Below are positions 26,700-32,687 of a stretch of 64,000 bases of DNA, piece by piece. The notes beneath the pieces are model-generated. The model was not told the origin of the DNA. It worked only from the letters and a program-made list of their open reading frames with translations, and did not search any database. This DNA is from Brachybacterium sp. SGAir0954 (GTDB lineage Bacteria > Actinomycetota > Actinomycetes > Actinomycetales > Dermabacteraceae). The stretch covers positions 1,116,001-1,180,000 of the forward strand of contig NZ_CP027295.1 in NCBI RefSeq assembly GCF_005490785.1. The letters run 5' to 3'. The first letter of the stretch is position 1. Each line of letters starts with the position of its first letter. The translations under genes were made by a program, and so were the position numbers.

Positions 26700-28211
26700 T
26701 CACCTGCTTGTCGCGTCGATCTCCTCCACGTACTTCGCGACGCGCGCGAAGACCTCCTCGTCGTACGGACCCCACTCGGGATGAGGAGTGTCCTCTCCCC
26801 GGTAGGACTCGTCGGCGTAGTGCGCCTGGTACGCCGCGAGCTTCACCTCGAGCGCGGCACGCACCCCGGCATACGCGGGGTCGTCGGCCACGTTCCGCAC
26901 CTCCGTCGGGTCCGCAGCGAGGTCATACAGCTCCCACTCCGCCTCGAAGATCCTGTCCGAGGCGCCGGGGACGCCGAGCCCGGCGCCGTAGTAGTGGATC
27001 AGCTTGTGGTCCTGGGTGCGGATTCCATAGTGGGCGGGCGCGTGGTGGATCGGGTCGTCGTGCTCCCAGTAGCGGTAGTAGGCGGCGTCCGGCCAGTCCT
27101 CGACCTCCTCTCCGCGCAGCAGCGGGCGGAAGCTGCGTCCCTGCGAGGTGGGCAGCGCCCGAGAGGGATCGAGCCCGCAGATGTCCAGGAAGGTCGCTGC
27201 GAAGTCGACGTTGGTGATGATCGCCTCGCAGCGGGATCCGGGAGCGATCTCCGCCGGCCAGCGGATGAGCATCGGCATCTGCAGGGACTGGTCGTACATG
27301 AGGCGCTTGTCGAACCATCCGTGGTCTCCGAGGAAGAAACCCTGGTCGGAGGTGTAGACCACGAGGGTGCTGTCGCGGAGCCCCTGATCGTCGAGGTGGT
27401 CGAGCAGGCGGCCCACGTTGTCGTCGATCGACTGGATGCACTGCAGGTAATCGCGCATGTAGATCTGGTACTTCCAGCGCATCCGCGCTTCGCGGTTCTC
27501 CTCGCCGCGCAGGTGCGGGGGGACCTCGGTCTTGAGGTCATCGGCGCCCATGTCGTCCGCGATCGTCATGTGCACGCCGCGCACCGCCTGAGAACGGGAC
27601 TCGAGGTCGTCGAAGAAGGTCTCCGGCTCCGGGATCGAGCCGTCCGCATAGAGATGCGTGTGCTTCTCGTCGGGCACCCAGGGGCGGTGCGGCGCCTTAT
27701 GGTGGACCATCATGCAGAACGGCTCGTCCGCGTCACGCCCGTCGATCCACTCGATCGCGAGATCGGTGACGATGTCCGTCGCGTAGCCGGGCACCGTGCG
27801 CGGACCGTCCGCGTCGATCATCTCGGGATCCTGGTAGTCGCCCTGCCCGGGGAAGATCTGCCAGGCGTCGAAGCCGCGCGGGAGGGACTGCCCGTGCTCG
27901 CCGAGGTGCCACTTGCCGAACATCGCCGTGGCGTAGCCGTCCTCGTGGAGCGCCTCGACGAAGGTCGGGACCCGATAATCCATCTCCGTCCAGATCGAGG
28001 AGACGCCGTTCACGTGGCTGTAGGTGCCGGTGAGGATCGACGCTCGCGACGGGCTGCAAATGGAGTTCGTGCAGAACACGGCGTCCATCCGCACCCCCTC
28101 CTCGGCGATGCGGTCCAGGTGCGGGGTGCAGTTCACACGGCTGCCATAAGCGGAGATCGCGTGGGCGGCGTGGTCGTCGCTCATGATGAAGACGATGTTG
28201 GGGCGGGTCAT
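26700..28211 (-). CDS. Type I sulfatase (formylglycine-dependent)
   Basis: 503 residues, alkaline-phosphatase superfamily. The N-terminus NIVFIMSDDHAAHAISAYG supplies the Ca-binding Asp pair (residues 12-13). ICSPSRASILTG carries the C-x-P-x-R sulfatase motif with Cys52 to be converted to formylglycine. WHLGEHG and LGDHGWFDKR supply the later His/Lys and DH metal sites. No signal peptide is visible, so it appears cytosolic. It is third in the operon transporter-LacI-sulfatase (ATGA overlap with lacI), and the matching formylglycine-generating enzyme is divergently encoded 2.6 kb away. The likely substrate is an imported sulfated sugar or other sulfate ester; exact specificity cannot be read. 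Confidence 0.92.
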   Translation of the reverse strand: MTRPNIVFIMSDDHAAHAISAYGSRVNCTPHLDRIAEEGVRMDAVFCTNSICSPSRASILTGTYSHVNGVSSIWTEMDYRVPTFVEALHEDGYATAMFGKWHLGEHGQSLPRGFDAWQIFPGQGDYQDPEMIDADGPRTVPGYATDIVTDLAIEWIDGRDADEPFCMMVHHKAPHRPWVPDEKHTHLYADGSIPEPETFFDDLESRSQAVRGVHMTIADDMGADDLKTEVPPHLRGEENREARMRWKYQIYMRDYLQCIQSIDDNVGRLLDHLDDQGLRDSTLVVYTSDQGFFLGDHGWFDKRLMYDQSLQMPMLIRWPAEIAPGSRCEAIITNVDFAATFLDICGLDPSRALPTSQGRSFRPLLRGEEVEDWPDAAYYRYWEHDDPIHHAPAHYGIRTQDHKLIHYYGAGLGVPGASDRIFEAEWELYDLAADPTEVRNVADDPAYAGVRAALEVKLAAYQAHYADESYRGEDTPHPEWGPYDEEVFARVAKYVEEIDATSR

Positions 28212-29278
28212 GCGGGGGTCCTTCCGGGAGGGGTCTCAGGGAGTCGGGTGTCGAGGGCGGGAGGCAGCACGATGCTGAGGTGCTCGCGATCGGGGGCGAG
28301 CTCGGAGGAGAGGAGAGCAGCCGCACGACGTCCTGCCTCCTCGAGCGGCAGGCGGGAGTAGACGAGATCCGGCCAGATCTCCGTGCGCGGCCAGCTGCCG
28401 GCGAGGGCGGCGACGACGGTGCCGGGCGCGACGTGGGACACGGCCCGCAGCGAGGTCTCGACGTCCGCACCCCAGGAGCAGAGGACGGCGGTGGTGTCGG
28501 GATCGTCGACGCCGAGCAGCGCGTCGGTGATGCTCCGGAGAGTGGATGCCAGGTACCCCCTCGCGATGGCGCCGTCCTCCGCATCCGTCCGTGCGAGGTC
28601 CTCGTCGCTCATCCCGGTGCTGACCACGCGCATCGTCACGCCGTCCGCGTGACCCAGCGCGCGCATCAGCGTCGCCTGCCGATCCCGCTCCGCTCGTGAC
28701 GAGACCTCAGGGCGGACGTGGAGAATCGTGCGGATGTCGCGTCCCGCGAGATGCGTGATCATCTCGCGGGCGCCATGCGCGTAGTCGAAGTCGACGGCGG
28801 AGTGGGGAGCGTCAGCGGCTCGCCCGCCGCAGTCGATCGTCACGAGCGGGGCCACACCGACGGCCGCCGCCTCGACGAGCGCGGGCGGTGGCACCGCGTC
28901 GTCGTGACCGACGAAGATCAGGCCGTCGATCATGCCGTTGCGGCAGTCCTCGAGGACCCCGGCCGTGGCATCGGGCAGCACCGTCATGCGGAGGCCCGAC
29001 GTGGCGAGCCCGTTCGCGATGCCCTGCACGATCGCCGCGTACCTGAGGTTCGTGAGCGGCTTGGTGAGCACCACCCCCGCCGTGCGGCTCGAGCGGGTGC
29101 GCAGCGACCGGGCCATGGCGTTCGGGGTGTATCCGAGCTCCTTGGCGATCCGGCGCACGCGCGCTCGGGTCTCGGGAGCGAGATGGACATGCGAGTCGTC
29201 GTTCAGGGCGTAGGAGACGGTCGAGACGGACACGGAGGCGCGACGGGCGACGTCCTTGAGCGTGGGGCGGGTCATCAT
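28208..29278 (-). CDS. LacI-family transcriptional regulator
   Basis: 356 residues. The HTH TLKDVARRASVSVSTVSYALNDD and hinge YTPNAMARSLRT are classical, followed by the periplasmic-binding-like effector domain. The start at ATG 29278 (tandem ATGs) is 4 bp after the transporter stop, and its own stop overlaps the sulfatase ATG. It is the obvious repressor of this operon and of the divergent FGE operon through the two palindromes at 30764-30798; the inducer is probably a sulfated or desulfated sugar (inference). Confidence 0.92.
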   Translation of the reverse strand: MMTRPTLKDVARRASVSVSTVSYALNDDSHVHLAPETRARVRRIAKELGYTPNAMARSLRTRSSRTAGVVLTKPLTNLRYAAIVQGIANGLATSGLRMTVLPDATAGVLEDCRNGMIDGLIFVGHDDAVPPPALVEAAAVGVAPLVTIDCGGRAADAPHSAVDFDYAHGAREMITHLAGRDIRTILHVRPEVSSRAERDRQATLMRALGHADGVTMRVVSTGMSDEDLARTDAEDGAIARGYLASTLRSITDALLGVDDPDTTAVLCSWGADVETSLRAVSHVAPGTVVAALAGSWPRTEIWPDLVYSRLPLEEAGRRAAALLSSELAPDREHLSIVLPPALDTRLPETPPGRTPA

Positions 29279-29282
29279 CGGA

Positions 29283-30704
29283 TCATGCCGTCTCGTCCCG
29301 GCGGTGAGCGAGGGCTTCCGCGTTCTGCTGCACACGGCGCCGTCCGAGCGGGAAGAGGACCAGCAGGATGAGGCCGGCCAGGAGATACAGGACTCCCGGC
29401 ACGAGTGTCGAGAAGAGGTAGATCCCGTCGATGGTCGCAGCGGACTGCACGTCCTCCCCGGACCGGAACCCGACGATCGCGAGGGCGAAGCCGCCCACGC
29501 CGCCCGCGATGGCCTGGCCCACCTTCCGGGCCCAGGTGTTGATCGCATAGACGGTGCCGTCGTCCCGCTCGCCGCTGCGCACCTCCTCGGCGTCGATGAC
29601 ATCGCCGACCAGCGCCCAGATGAGCAGGTTGTAGAAGCCCAGACCGAAACCGGCGAGGAAGGCCAGACCGATGAAGATCCACGGTGAGGCGATGTGCAGC
29701 GCGAACAGGAGCACGTAGAGCGTTCCGGTGGCGAGGAGAGCGGTCGTGACGACCTCCTTCTTCCCGAAGCGGGTGGCGAGTCGCGCGGCGATCGGGGAGA
29801 GCAGGAGCCCCGGGAGGAACGACGCGAGCTGGGCCGGACCGGACAGCGAGCCGTCGTTGAAGTGGTAGAGCCACAGGTAGGCGGCCATCGTCCCGTAGAG
29901 CAGGGAGCCCAGCATGATGACGATGTTCGCGCTGATGAGGGTGAGGAGCGGGCGGCTCCCTGCGAGGGAGCGGACCAGGCTGAGGAAGCTGCGTGCGGAG
30001 GCGTCACGCGGCGGGGCGGCGACGCGTTCGCGGACGTTCGCGACGCAGATCCAGTACCAGAGGGCGGCGAGGGCCGAGAAGACGATCGCGGTGGCGAAGA
30101 GTCGGCCGGGCATCAGCTGCGACGTGCCGTCGACCATCCCGAACACGATGAGCGGCGGCACCAGCGAGACGAGCAGGCCCGCGGAGTTCGCCCCGATTCC
30201 CCTGAAGACCGAGAGCGAGGCGCGCTCCTCGGGGACGATCGTCAGGACGGAGGCCATCGATCCGTACGAGATGTTCGCGACCGTGTAAAAGACCGAGCCC
30301 CACAGCAGGTAGGTGATGGCGGCGAACGCGAGGCGGAGCCCGTAGTCCCAGTCGCCGACCATCGGCAGGTACATGAGAGCGCTCGCGACGGCGAGCGGCA
30401 CGGCGACCCGGCCGATCCAGGGACGGAACCTGCCGTGGGATGAGGGGGCATGACGGTCGAGGAAGCGGCCCCAGCCCACGTCGGTGAAGGCGTCGATGAG
30501 CCGCGCGGCCAGGAAGAGCGTGCCCACGTGCGCGGGGTTCAGACCTGCCACGTTGGTGTAGTAGACCATCAGGAACGCGTTGGCCAGCAGGAACGTGAAG
30601 TCGTTGCCGAGGTCGCCGAACAGATAACCCACCCGGTCTCGGATCCCGAAGGGGCGTGCGGCGAGGAGTTGGTGCGGCGAGGCCGTGTCAGCGGTGGTGC
30701 TCAT
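29283..30704 (-). CDS. GPH-family (MelB-like) sugar transporter
   Basis: 473 residues with about 12 membrane helices. GYLFGDLGNDFTFLLANAFLMVYYTNVAGL and the loop DRHAPSSHGRFRPWIGRV are the glycoside-pentoside-hexuronide cation symporter signatures (MFS_2); GTVYAINTWARKVGQAIAGG is the typical helix 10/11 motif. It probably imports a glycoside, perhaps sulfated, using a cation gradient. First gene of the operon with lacI and the sulfatase; GAGAG precedes the ATG. Confidence 0.9.
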   Translation of the reverse strand: MSTTADTASPHQLLAARPFGIRDRVGYLFGDLGNDFTFLLANAFLMVYYTNVAGLNPAHVGTLFLAARLIDAFTDVGWGRFLDRHAPSSHGRFRPWIGRVAVPLAVASALMYLPMVGDWDYGLRLAFAAITYLLWGSVFYTVANISYGSMASVLTIVPEERASLSVFRGIGANSAGLLVSLVPPLIVFGMVDGTSQLMPGRLFATAIVFSALAALWYWICVANVRERVAAPPRDASARSFLSLVRSLAGSRPLLTLISANIVIMLGSLLYGTMAAYLWLYHFNDGSLSGPAQLASFLPGLLLSPIAARLATRFGKKEVVTTALLATGTLYVLLFALHIASPWIFIGLAFLAGFGLGFYNLLIWALVGDVIDAEEVRSGERDDGTVYAINTWARKVGQAIAGGVGGFALAIVGFRSGEDVQSAATIDGIYLFSTLVPGVLYLLAGLILLVLFPLGRRRVQQNAEALAHRRDETA

Positions 30705-30763
30705 GGGGGTTCTCTCTTCATCGAGGGGACTCCGCGCAGTGGCGGTGAGGCAGACGCTAGATA

Positions 30764-30798
30764 CTCAATCGTTTGAGGTGAAGGCTCAAACCTTTGAG
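30764..30798. promoter_or_regulatory. Twin LacI-type operators of the sulfatase locus
   Basis: CTCAAACCTTTGAG (30785-30798) is a perfect 6+6 palindrome with a 2-bp centre, and CTCAATCGTTTGAG (30764-30777) is the same site with one mismatch. Their centres are 21 bp apart, two helical turns, placing both on one DNA face between the divergent transporter and FGE genes. This is what a cooperative LacI-family repressor would use. Confidence 0.7.
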
Positions 30799-30871
30799 TT
30801 TTCCGAGAGAGGTGTCATCGGCATCGGAGGGCGATGTCGGAGCCGAAACGGCATACCCTGCCCAGGGAGCA

Positions 30872-31945
30872 ATGAGCGTGGAGGAGACGGGTGTGAGCGG
30901 CGAGGACGCGCAGGGCTGCGGCTGCGGATGCGGCATGCCGTCGAGGGAGCAGTCCATCGGCATCGGTGAGAGGCCCCCGTCGGCCGCCGTCCCGTCAGCC
31001 GATGCCCCGTCGGCCGCCGCCCCCTCCGGCACCCCCGCCCCGGGCCGCCATCGAATCGCGCAGGCCACCGTTCCTGCGGGGACTTTCACGATGGGCGACT
31101 CCTGGGGTGACCGGAACCGGGCCGACGGCGAGGTGCCCCGCCACGAGGTGCGCCTGAGCGGCTTCGAGATCGACGCCACGACCGTCACCAACGCGGACTT
31201 CACGCGCTTCGTCGACGCCACGGAGTACCGCACCGAGGCGGAGGTCTTCGGCTACTCCGCCGTCTTCCACCTCGCGATCACCGCGCCCGAGCAGGACCTC
31301 ATGCCGCCCGCGGCCGGCACCCCCTGGTGGCGCGGCGTGCACGGCGCGAGCTGGCGCCGTCCCGGCGGTTCCGGGTCCAGCCTGCGCGGCCTCGAGGACC
31401 ACCCCGTCGTGCACGTGAGCTGGAACGACGCCCGGGCCTACTGCGACTGGGCCGGGCGCCGCCTGCCCACCGAGGCCGAATGGGAGTACGCCGCGCGCGG
31501 CGGCATCGAGGGCGCCAAGTACCCCTGGGGCGACGCCGAGGTGGACGACGGCGGCTGGCGCGCCAACATCTGGCAGGGCGAGTTCCCCCGCATCAACACC
31601 CTCGAGGACGGCCACCTCACCACCGCCCCCGCGCGCAGCTACACGCCCAACGGCTACGGGCTCTGGCAGCCCGTGGGCAACGTGTGGGAGTGGTGCGAGG
31701 ACCGCTTCCATCCCGCCACCTACCGGCGGCCCGGTCAGAGCGGGGAGATCGTGGACCCCACCGGCCCCGAGGACGGCGAGGAGCGCGTGCTGCGCGGCGG
31801 CAGCTACCTCTGCCACGACTCCTACTGCAACCGGTACCGCAACGCCGCCCGCTCCCGGAACACCCCGGACTCCTCGATGGGCAACGCCGGCTTCCGCACC
31901 GTCGCGCTCCGCATCCCCGACGCCCGCCGCACGGAGGACTCATGA
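30872..31945 (+). CDS. Formylglycine-generating enzyme (sulfatase-modifying factor)
   Basis: 357 residues from ATG 30872. The FGE-sulfatase fold begins near residue 70 (TVPAGTFTMGDSWGDRNRADGE). VHVSWNDARAYCDWAGRRLPTEAEWEYAARGG, PVGNVWEWCED and RGGSYLCHDSYCNRYRNAAR are the family hallmarks. The two Cys of CHDSYC match the copper/active-site pair of aerobic FGE, so it should oxidise the sulfatase Cys to formylglycine. An unusual Cys/Gly-rich stretch (CGCGCG) sits near residue 20. GTG 30893 has a much better Shine-Dalgarno (GGAGGA) and would remove 7 residues. It is first of an operon with two DUF202 genes, divergent from the sulfatase operon. Confidence 0.92.
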   Translation: MSVEETGVSGEDAQGCGCGCGMPSREQSIGIGERPPSAAVPSADAPSAAAPSGTPAPGRHRIAQATVPAGTFTMGDSWGDRNRADGEVPRHEVRLSGFEIDATTVTNADFTRFVDATEYRTEAEVFGYSAVFHLAITAPEQDLMPPAAGTPWWRGVHGASWRRPGGSGSSLRGLEDHPVVHVSWNDARAYCDWAGRRLPTEAEWEYAARGGIEGAKYPWGDAEVDDGGWRANIWQGEFPRINTLEDGHLTTAPARSYTPNGYGLWQPVGNVWEWCEDRFHPATYRRPGQSGEIVDPTGPEDGEERVLRGGSYLCHDSYCNRYRNAARSRNTPDSSMGNAGFRTVALRIPDARRTEDS

Positions 31946-32307
31946 CCGAACAGCAGCGACGCTTCCCCGCCTCCGTGTACCGAGAGGGGGAGGAGCCCGA
32001 TCCCCGCTTCAGCCTCGCCAACGAGCGCACCTTCCTCGCCTGGGTGCGCACGGCGCTCGCGCTCTACGCCGGGGCCTTCGCCCTCGAGGCGCTCGCGATC
32101 CCCGAGCCGCTCGTCTGGCGCGCCTCCGCCGCCGCGGTGTTCCTCGTGCTCGGCACGCTCGCCGCGCTGCAGGCCTGGTGGGGCTGGCGGCAGACCGAGC
32201 GCGCCCTGCGCCGCGGCCTGCCGCTGCCGGGGCTCGGCGTGGGCGGCGTGATCGTGATCGGCGTGGTGATCGCCGCCGCGCTCGTCGCCCTCGGGATGTG
32301 GGTGTGA
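31942..32307 (+). CDS. DUF202 (YidH-like) small membrane protein
   Basis: 121 residues. LANERTFLAWVRTALALYAG is the DUF202 signature, and three membrane helices follow (about 32-50, 60-78, 98-118). The ATG overlaps the FGE stop (ATGA), and its own stop overlaps the next DUF202 gene. The function of the family is unknown. Co-translation with FGE is unusual and hints at a membrane role tied to sulfatase maturation, though simple gene packing could also explain it. Confidence 0.82.
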   Translation: MTEQQRRFPASVYREGEEPDPRFSLANERTFLAWVRTALALYAGAFALEALAIPEPLVWRASAAAVFLVLGTLAALQAWWGWRQTERALRRGLPLPGLGVGGVIVIGVVIAAALVALGMWV

Positions 32308-32687
32308 CCGGCGCCGGCAGCGGTCGTGGGGCCGACGGCGGCGCCGGTGTCCGCGGCGCCGTGTTCGACCCGGGCCTGCAGCCCGAGCGCACCCTCCTCG
32401 CCTGGCGCCGCACCTGCCTCTCCTTCGCGGCGGGCAGCCTCGTCGCCATGCGCTTCGCCCTCGAGTCGCTTGGCACGGTCGCCGTGGTCGTCGGGGTGCT
32501 CGGCGCGGCCCTCGCCGGGCTCGCCTACCTGCTCGCCGTCACCGGGTACCGCCGCGCGAACCGCTCGCTCACCGCGCAGGGCGCCCTGACCCGCAGCGGT
32601 CTGCCGATGCTCGTCGCGACCCTCGCCGTGCTCGCGATCGGGGCGCTGGGCGCCGCCTTCCTGCTGCGCAGCGGGTTCGGGATCTGA
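32304..32687 (+). CDS. Second DUF202-type membrane protein
   Basis: 127 residues from GTG 32304 (GTGA overlap). FDPGLQPERTLLAWRRTCLSFAAGSL is the second common DUF202 form, lacking the first protein's SLANERT but keeping ERTxLAWxR, with three helices. Paired DUF202 proteins of these two forms often occur together, suggesting a heteromeric membrane unit. Last gene of the FGE operon; a strong inverted repeat follows at 32708-32736. Confidence 0.8.
   Translation: MTGAGSGRGADGGAGVRGAVFDPGLQPERTLLAWRRTCLSFAAGSLVAMRFALESLGTVAVVVGVLGAALAGLAYLLAVTGYRRANRSLTAQGALTRSGLPMLVATLAVLAIGALGAAFLLRSGFGI

Follow-up and report, generated by a model that had tools for sequence, protein, structure and literature searches.

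Six genes fill the interval 26700-32687 of a 64,000-nucleotide stretch of Brachybacterium sp. SGAir0954 DNA (hereafter the window), which corresponds to C1:1116001-1180000 of a single-contig 3.41 Mb genome (G000). They form two facing operons, one encoding a GPH-family symporter, a LacI-family regulator and a Cys-type sulfatase, and the other a formylglycine-generating enzyme (FGE) followed by two DUF202 membrane proteins (Table 1). The listing of open reading frames (ORFs) confirms all six genes, and each protein scores above the curated Pfam cut-offs in profile searches with Pfam and NCBIfam models, in agreement with the gene set, position and facing arrangement described in an earlier note on this DNA. 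Within each operon, neighbouring genes overlap or nearly touch. The unexpected result of the analysis, and one weightier than the locus itself, is a cysteine tail at the N-terminus of the FGE.

Table 1. Genes and sequence features of the sulfatase locus, in window coordinates
Feature	Position	Strand	Evidence
S1 sulfatase, Cys-type, S1_11-like, with SGSH_C	26700..28211	-	PF00884 184.5 bits; CSPSR from residue 52
LacI-family regulator, overlapping sulfatase start	28208..29278	-	PF00356 HTH 60.8 bits
GPH-family (MFS_2) cation symporter	29283..30704	-	MFS_2 268.7 bits; TIGR00792 299.4 bits vs cut-off 231.35
Operator 2, CTCAATCGTTTGAG	30764..30777	no strand	set by eye between weak -35 and -10 (TAGCGT) of the GPH promoter
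Operator 1, CTCAAACCTTTGAG, 21 bp from operator 2	30785..30798	no strand	pattern search
Formylglycine-generating enzyme (FGE, aerobic sulfatase maturase)	30872..31945	+	PF03781 255.8 bits; catalytic pair in YLCHDSYCNRYR
N-terminal cysteine tail of the FGE (codons for CGCGCGMPSR, residues 16-25)	30917..30946	+	translation
DUF202 membrane protein a, 4 nt overlap with FGE stop	31942..32307	+	PF02656 58.6 bits
DUF202 membrane protein b, 4 nt overlap with DUF202 a	32304..32687	+	PF02656 52.5 bits

The sulfatase combines an S1 catalytic domain with the C-x-P-x-R signature, and its CSPSR motif begins at Cys52, which bears out the earlier assignment to the Cys-type enzymes. Because the catalytic core begins at residue 3, there is no room for a visible signal peptide; the earlier statement that the protein has none agrees with this, as judged from the core start and not by a signal-peptide program, and the enzyme is probably cytosolic. 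The eight top matches in the PDB score 322-413 bits, and the ninth only 150 bits. The best solved relatives are an N-acetylglucosamine-6-sulfatase (5g2v, 413 bits) and a mucin-desulfating sulfatase (7p24, 390 bits), which we take to be BT4656 and BT3177, respectively, and an exo-L-galactose-6-sulfatase (7lha) is also found among the eight. The closest overall similarity is to S1_11 enzymes, the subfamily to which the remaining top matches presumably also belong. One review describes BT4656 and BT3177 as 6S-GlcNAc sulfatases of subfamily S1_11, and states that about half of this subfamily, especially its aquatic members, lacks the N-acetyl-binding region and that L-galactose is bound by the same His/Asp/Arg triad (PMC10154612). 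By alignment, the Asp and Arg of the triad appear to be conserved in the window sulfatase (D301/R303). The His that would contact O3 is uncertain, so that the substrate is at best guess a 6-O-sulfated sugar, such as 6-sulfo-GlcNAc or a small glycoside. A nagA-like gene is located elsewhere in the genome, just below the cut-off.

The window FGE holds the catalytic Cys pair (RGGSYLCHDSYCNRYR) and likely starts at ATG 30872 rather than at TTG 30794, which lies inside an operator. Its core is similar over the full length to the bacterial and human enzymes (2q17, 6muj; SUMF1), with scores of 399 and 308 bits. The copper dependence of FGE was shown by Holder et al. (PMC4505483), and Cu(I) is described in a review as being held by the two active-site cysteines (PMC7279497). 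Profile searches found two FGE-family proteins in the genome, no anaerobic sulfatase maturase (TIGR03942), and a single other S1 sulfatase, which is split over two reading frames. The second FGE-family protein (C1:97693-98421, L168) lacks the catalytic Cys pair (RGGSYLGREDSETG), and the split sulfatase remnant (C1:2233676-2234787, L169) is 58-60% identical to the window sulfatase. The window FGE and the window sulfatase therefore make up the only complete pair recovered by these searches, and with no other matched FGE holding the catalytic pair and no anaerobic maturase detected, the window FGE probably matures the neighbouring sulfatase.

Two 14-bp near-palindromes, CTCAATCGTTTGAG and CTCAAACCTTTGAG, are located 21 bp apart between the operons. 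The operator pattern CTCAANCNTTTGAG has no third exact match in the 3.41 Mb genome, and the pattern read backwards has none; a window search with two mismatches allowed gave four strand-wise matches, a number equalled by 2 of 100 shuffles. Scanning with up to three mismatches to CTCAAACGTTTGAG revealed tandem sites with the same spacing in all five LacI cassettes (the window and L128-L131, the weakest site, in L128, having three mismatches); no such sites turned up at the remaining 39 of the 43 loci L128-L170. In all five cassettes the operators lie within roughly 60-120 bp of the GPH start, and by eye the GPH-proximal operator falls between a weak -35 and a TAGCGT-like -10. The only terminator-like match overlaps the operators. 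The regulator itself combines the LacI-type HTH domain with these nearby palindromes; its effector region matches no Pfam domain at 0.001, and an NCBIfam LacI-family model (GntR) aligns with residues 5-329. The predicted repression of the GPH-LacI-sulfatase operon by LacI is well supported by this arrangement. The operators are separated from the FGE start by ~74 bp in the window and by ~250 bp in two related genomes (G013 and G034), and in a third (G019) none is found at the FGE, as a further sulfatase and an MFS gene intervene and the operators stay at the GPH gene. The idea of an operator region shared by two co-regulated operons thus fits the geometry of the window, where control of both would be possible; the operators themselves appear to belong to the GPH operon, and repression of the FGE by LacI is not supported, as the arrangement it would use is not conserved.

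The distribution of these genes was analyzed across the family, in a set of 47 genomes to which the window's own belongs. A sulfatase with at least 85% identity is present in five of them (100% in the own genome), each time together with LacI, GPH and the same type of FGE. The exact six-gene order is seen in G000, G009, G013 and G034, and in G019 the FGE and GPH genes are separated by the additional sulfatase and MFS gene, so that the synteny proposed as a check in the earlier note does recur, in four of the 46 other genomes, one of them with an insertion. Full-length near copies of the FGE (at least 65% identity; partial copies, in G029 and as a second copy in G009, are not counted) occur in 18 genomes, and in 13 of these the sulfatase-LacI-GPH cassette is absent; the DUF202 pair follows the FGE in 11 of the 18 (the contig of G016 is short). 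Transglutaminase and/or MoxR-like genes, which sit upstream of the window's cassette, are found in the same 17.5 kb at seven of the 13 cassette-free loci (L148, L149, L150, L152, L153, L156 and L158) and were not found in the fetched stretch of the other six (L151, L154, L155, L157, L159 and L160). At L158, riboflavin genes adjoin the DUF202 pair, as in the window. This pattern suggests a resident FGE module and a variable sulfatase cassette. A maturase dedicated to this sulfatase had been suggested, with an FGE beside unrelated genes in relatives named as the finding that would speak against it; the 13 cassette-free near copies are of exactly this kind, and this part of the suggestion is not supported. 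The broader proposal of a set that could import, sense and desulfate one compound stands to the extent that a Cys-type sulfatase, an importer, a local repressor with operators and the sole catalytic FGE adjoin each other.

Other combinations were observed in the same family. In G011 (L154), the FGE-DUF202-DUF202 genes lie beside three other sulfatases of different kinds. A sister locus in G045 and G046 has a 66-67% identical sulfatase with a LacI gene and an FGE ~4 kb away; in G046 (L132, 5383-10864), an SsuA-family ABC importer, the S1_11-like sulfatase and LacI stand in a row.

The DUF202 pair was also considered as a general sulfatase partner, and this was rejected: no FGE or sulfatase was found within ~6 kb at any of 36 DUF202 loci that had no prior link to FGE. 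These belong to 40 fetched loci, the others being three chosen for an adjacent FGE (L209-L211) and one known to lie near an FGE (L180); 20 shifted control loci, 16 of them from the genomes of the DUF202 loci, likewise had no FGE or sulfatase. Among 149 genomes of the order, 86 have a DUF202 match and 68 an FGE-family match. FGE-adjacent DUF202 genes recur, among the matches listed, in the own genus, in G082, G105, G130 and G118, in Microbacterium sp. STN6 and in Acrocarpospora. As judged from gene neighbourhoods, the DUF202-FGE link is real but local, and no account linking the two was found in a literature search.

The N-terminus of the window FGE, MSVEETGVSGEDAQGCGCGCGMPSREQ, contains the tail CGCGCGMPSR at residues 16-25. 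We counted an FGE as tailed when CC or CxC lies no more than 70 residues ahead of its core; these N-terminal stretches come from translating the open frame, so that some may extend beyond the true start, and the samples are non-random and overlap in taxa. Among the named loci, a tail is present in 29 of the 37 FGEs that have the catalytic pair (shuffle mean 4.0, maximum 8) and in 5 of 45 FGE-like proteins that lack the pair (shuffle mean 1.9, maximum 6). The fetched family loci gave 25/25 with the pair (shuffle mean 4.7, maximum 10) and 1/1 without it, the initial order loci 3/4 (shuffle mean 1.3, maximum 3), and the class-level best matches to the Streptomyces FGE 29/29 (30 loci, one duplicate removed). 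In 40 order-level regions, hand-picked mostly from the top of the match list, 20 of the 37 FGEs that have the catalytic pair are tailed (shuffle mean 3.6, maximum 9), as against none of the three that lack it; in this sample the tail is carried by all 19 FGEs more than 45.5% identical to the window FGE and by one of the 18 below that value. Di-cysteine tails are widespread in this bacterial sample, and a more distantly related group of FGEs is without them. On a tree built with FastTree from 141 distinct catalytic FGEs, of which 116 are tailed, the trait requires three changes versus 23.6 in shuffles; the run warned of long branches, and 35 of the named rows passed the tree filters, 27 of them tailed.

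A tail can also be read in the gene for a near-identical copy of the reference enzyme. A G779 protein (L304) is 99% identical to the crystallised stretch of Streptomyces coelicolor FGE, and its frame runs upstream to a GTG preceded by GAGGA, which adds a CC tail (VTLTHRPCCAPATAPVAVAAPSP...). At the same threshold 15 genomes matched, 12 of which were fetched as loci; CC stands at that place in all 12, in a frame that begins M/V-T-x-x-[HR]-x-x-CC. The start codon is GTG in three (L304-L306) and ATG in nine, and five of them have an in-frame stop a short way upstream. The PDB match begins downstream of CC, at AV-AAPSP (6muj residue 7) or AAPSP (2q17 residue 36), and the crystallised chains align only downstream of the tail position, unlike the tailed window FGE. 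Judging by 6muj alone, which has only six residues before the alignment start, the crystallised constructs would lack the CC.

Human FGE also has a di-cysteine N-terminal extension, Cys50/Cys52 (PMC7279497, PMC4505483), which is called unique to higher eukaryotes in a review (PMC7279497) and was reported by Holder et al. to be dispensable in vitro (PMC4505483). A literature search revealed, among the matches listed, no account of a di-cysteine tail in bacterial FGE. The human motif presumably resembles CGCG-x-P-x-R. A tentative idea, to which we give somewhat less than even odds, is that the tail (CC-x-P or CGCG-x-P-x-R) is an ancient and largely overlooked part of the enzyme that, inside the cell, supplies the active-site cysteines with Cu(I) or keeps it for them. 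Such a tail would predate the eukaryotic endoplasmic reticulum (ER) and be functionally homologous to human Cys50/Cys52, and the standard S. coelicolor enzyme would lack it because its start codon was placed too far downstream. Copper acquisition is a hypothetical role for the tail, and a copper-loading or thiol role of a conserved cytosolic tail would reconcile the copper dependence of FGE with an extension that is dispensable in vitro.

From the gene identities, the operators, the uniqueness of the FGE and the conservation pattern, all read from the sequence, we infer a substrate, its transport, induction and the action of the FGE on this sulfatase. The best explanation, with a probability of about 0.6, is an inducible import-and-desulfate cassette set beside a resident sulfatase-maturation operon. 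The GPH symporter would import an intact small sulfated compound, most likely the 6-O-sulfated sugar suggested above. LacI would hold the GPH-LacI-sulfatase operon off via the two operators, one of them between the GPH -35 and -10, until the ligand releases it and the operon is switched on. The neighbouring copper-dependent FGE would convert Cys52 of the sulfatase to formylglycine, and the cytosolic S1_11-like enzyme would then remove the sulfate. The FGE with its two DUF202 partners would be an older resident module serving whatever sulfatases a strain has, the window sulfatase being the only intact Cys-type sulfatase found in this genome. The locus is a neat rather than a radical arrangement, an inducible uptake-and-desulfation cassette beside a general maturase.

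Several observations weigh against this explanation. One of the two candidate O3 histidines of the sulfatase is an Arg (YYRYW vs YYHYY), the other candidate being conserved, and the 16 distinct family sulfatases that fit the script pattern all have Arg at this position, further fetched sulfatases that did not match it falling outside this count. A loop of ~12 residues is inserted relative to five aligned solved relatives. No glycoside hydrolase or sugar-catabolic gene was found within the two operons, and a sigma-70 consensus scan found no promoter, that of the FGE included. BLAST located neither the transglutaminase nor the MoxR neighbours in the fetched parts of L128-L131, so that only the window shows a single, fixed place of insertion. 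Finally, the importer in G046 belongs to the SsuA-family, sulfonate-type ABC systems (TIGR01728, 188 bits vs cut-off 163.5), which fits sulfur scavenging over sugar use.

The sulfatase might accordingly free sulfate from imported small sulfate esters as a source of sulfur rather than carbon, with GPH merely as the importer. The G046 importer, directly upstream of the 66-67% identical sulfatase with LacI, and the absence of catabolic genes from both operons favor such scavenging, but the closest solved sulfatases are carbohydrate 6-O-sulfatases, and the LacI and GPH families usually serve carbohydrates; on balance we find it doubtful. It also seems unlikely that the locus is a truly dedicated unit in which LacI represses both operons and thereby limits FGE production to times when its one sulfatase is required. 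The position of the operators between the divergent operons, close to the FGE start in the window, and the FGE being the sole catalytic maturase found in the genome would suit such a unit, whereas the longer spacing in G013 and G034, the FGE of G019 displaced from the operators, and the 13 of 18 near copies that occur with no cassette argue against it.

As for the tail, its cysteines might be non-functional, either chance residues in an unstructured segment or a product of translating upstream of the gene. An entire group of FGEs retaining the catalytic pair is tailless (17/37 in the order sample), and the studied form of S. coelicolor FGE, seemingly tailless as well, is described as active after copper treatment (PMC4505483). 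Non-functional cysteines of either kind are nonetheless improbable given the excess over shuffles among the named FGEs, the presence of CC or CxC in 116 of 141 catalytic FGEs with only three changes on the tree, and the common opening of the frame in all 12 fetched Streptomyces-type loci.

In human FGE, Cys50/Cys52 are required for sulfatase activation in cells, and the extension is unnecessary in vitro. Should the bacterial tail be of the same kind, its basic function could not be ER retention alone, and a simple cytosolic system would be available for its study. This would also matter for multiple sulfatase deficiency and for the use of bacterial FGE in biocatalysis, the latter because the S. 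coelicolor chains that were crystallised appear to have no tail.

Comparison with known systems places the locus among several partial counterparts. The FGE shares the full-length core and the catalytic Cys pair with the bacterial and human enzymes (2q17, 6muj, SUMF1), and the di-cysteine N-terminal extension with human SUMF1; unlike them, it is presumably cytosolic and carries CGCGCGMPSR. The sulfatase belongs to the same S1 family as BT4656 (5g2v) and BT3177 (7p24) and keeps the Asp-Arg of FDKR, but it differs from both in having no visible signal peptide, in standing beside an FGE, in its extra loop, and in the Arg of YYRYW where those two carry His. The Bacteroides heparin sulfatases are described as periplasmic (PMC10154612). 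The yidF-yidG-yidH/yidI/yidJ-yidK/yidL locus of E. coli likewise places a pair of overlapping DUF202 genes next to a sulfatase of the SGSH_C type, a symporter and a putative regulator; in strain K-12, yidG and yidH both encode DUF202 proteins and adjoin the sulfatase yidJ and the symporter yidK. YidF of K-12 (L171), next to the DUF202 pair and YidJ, matched no Pfam family. Unlike the window, the yid stretch has an SSF symporter in place of GPH and no FGE. The ats clusters of Bifidobacterium breve are similar in being self-contained, with a sulfatase, a maturase, a transporter and a regulator for GlcNAc-6-sulfate, and differ from the window in using a radical-SAM maturase and a ROK regulator.

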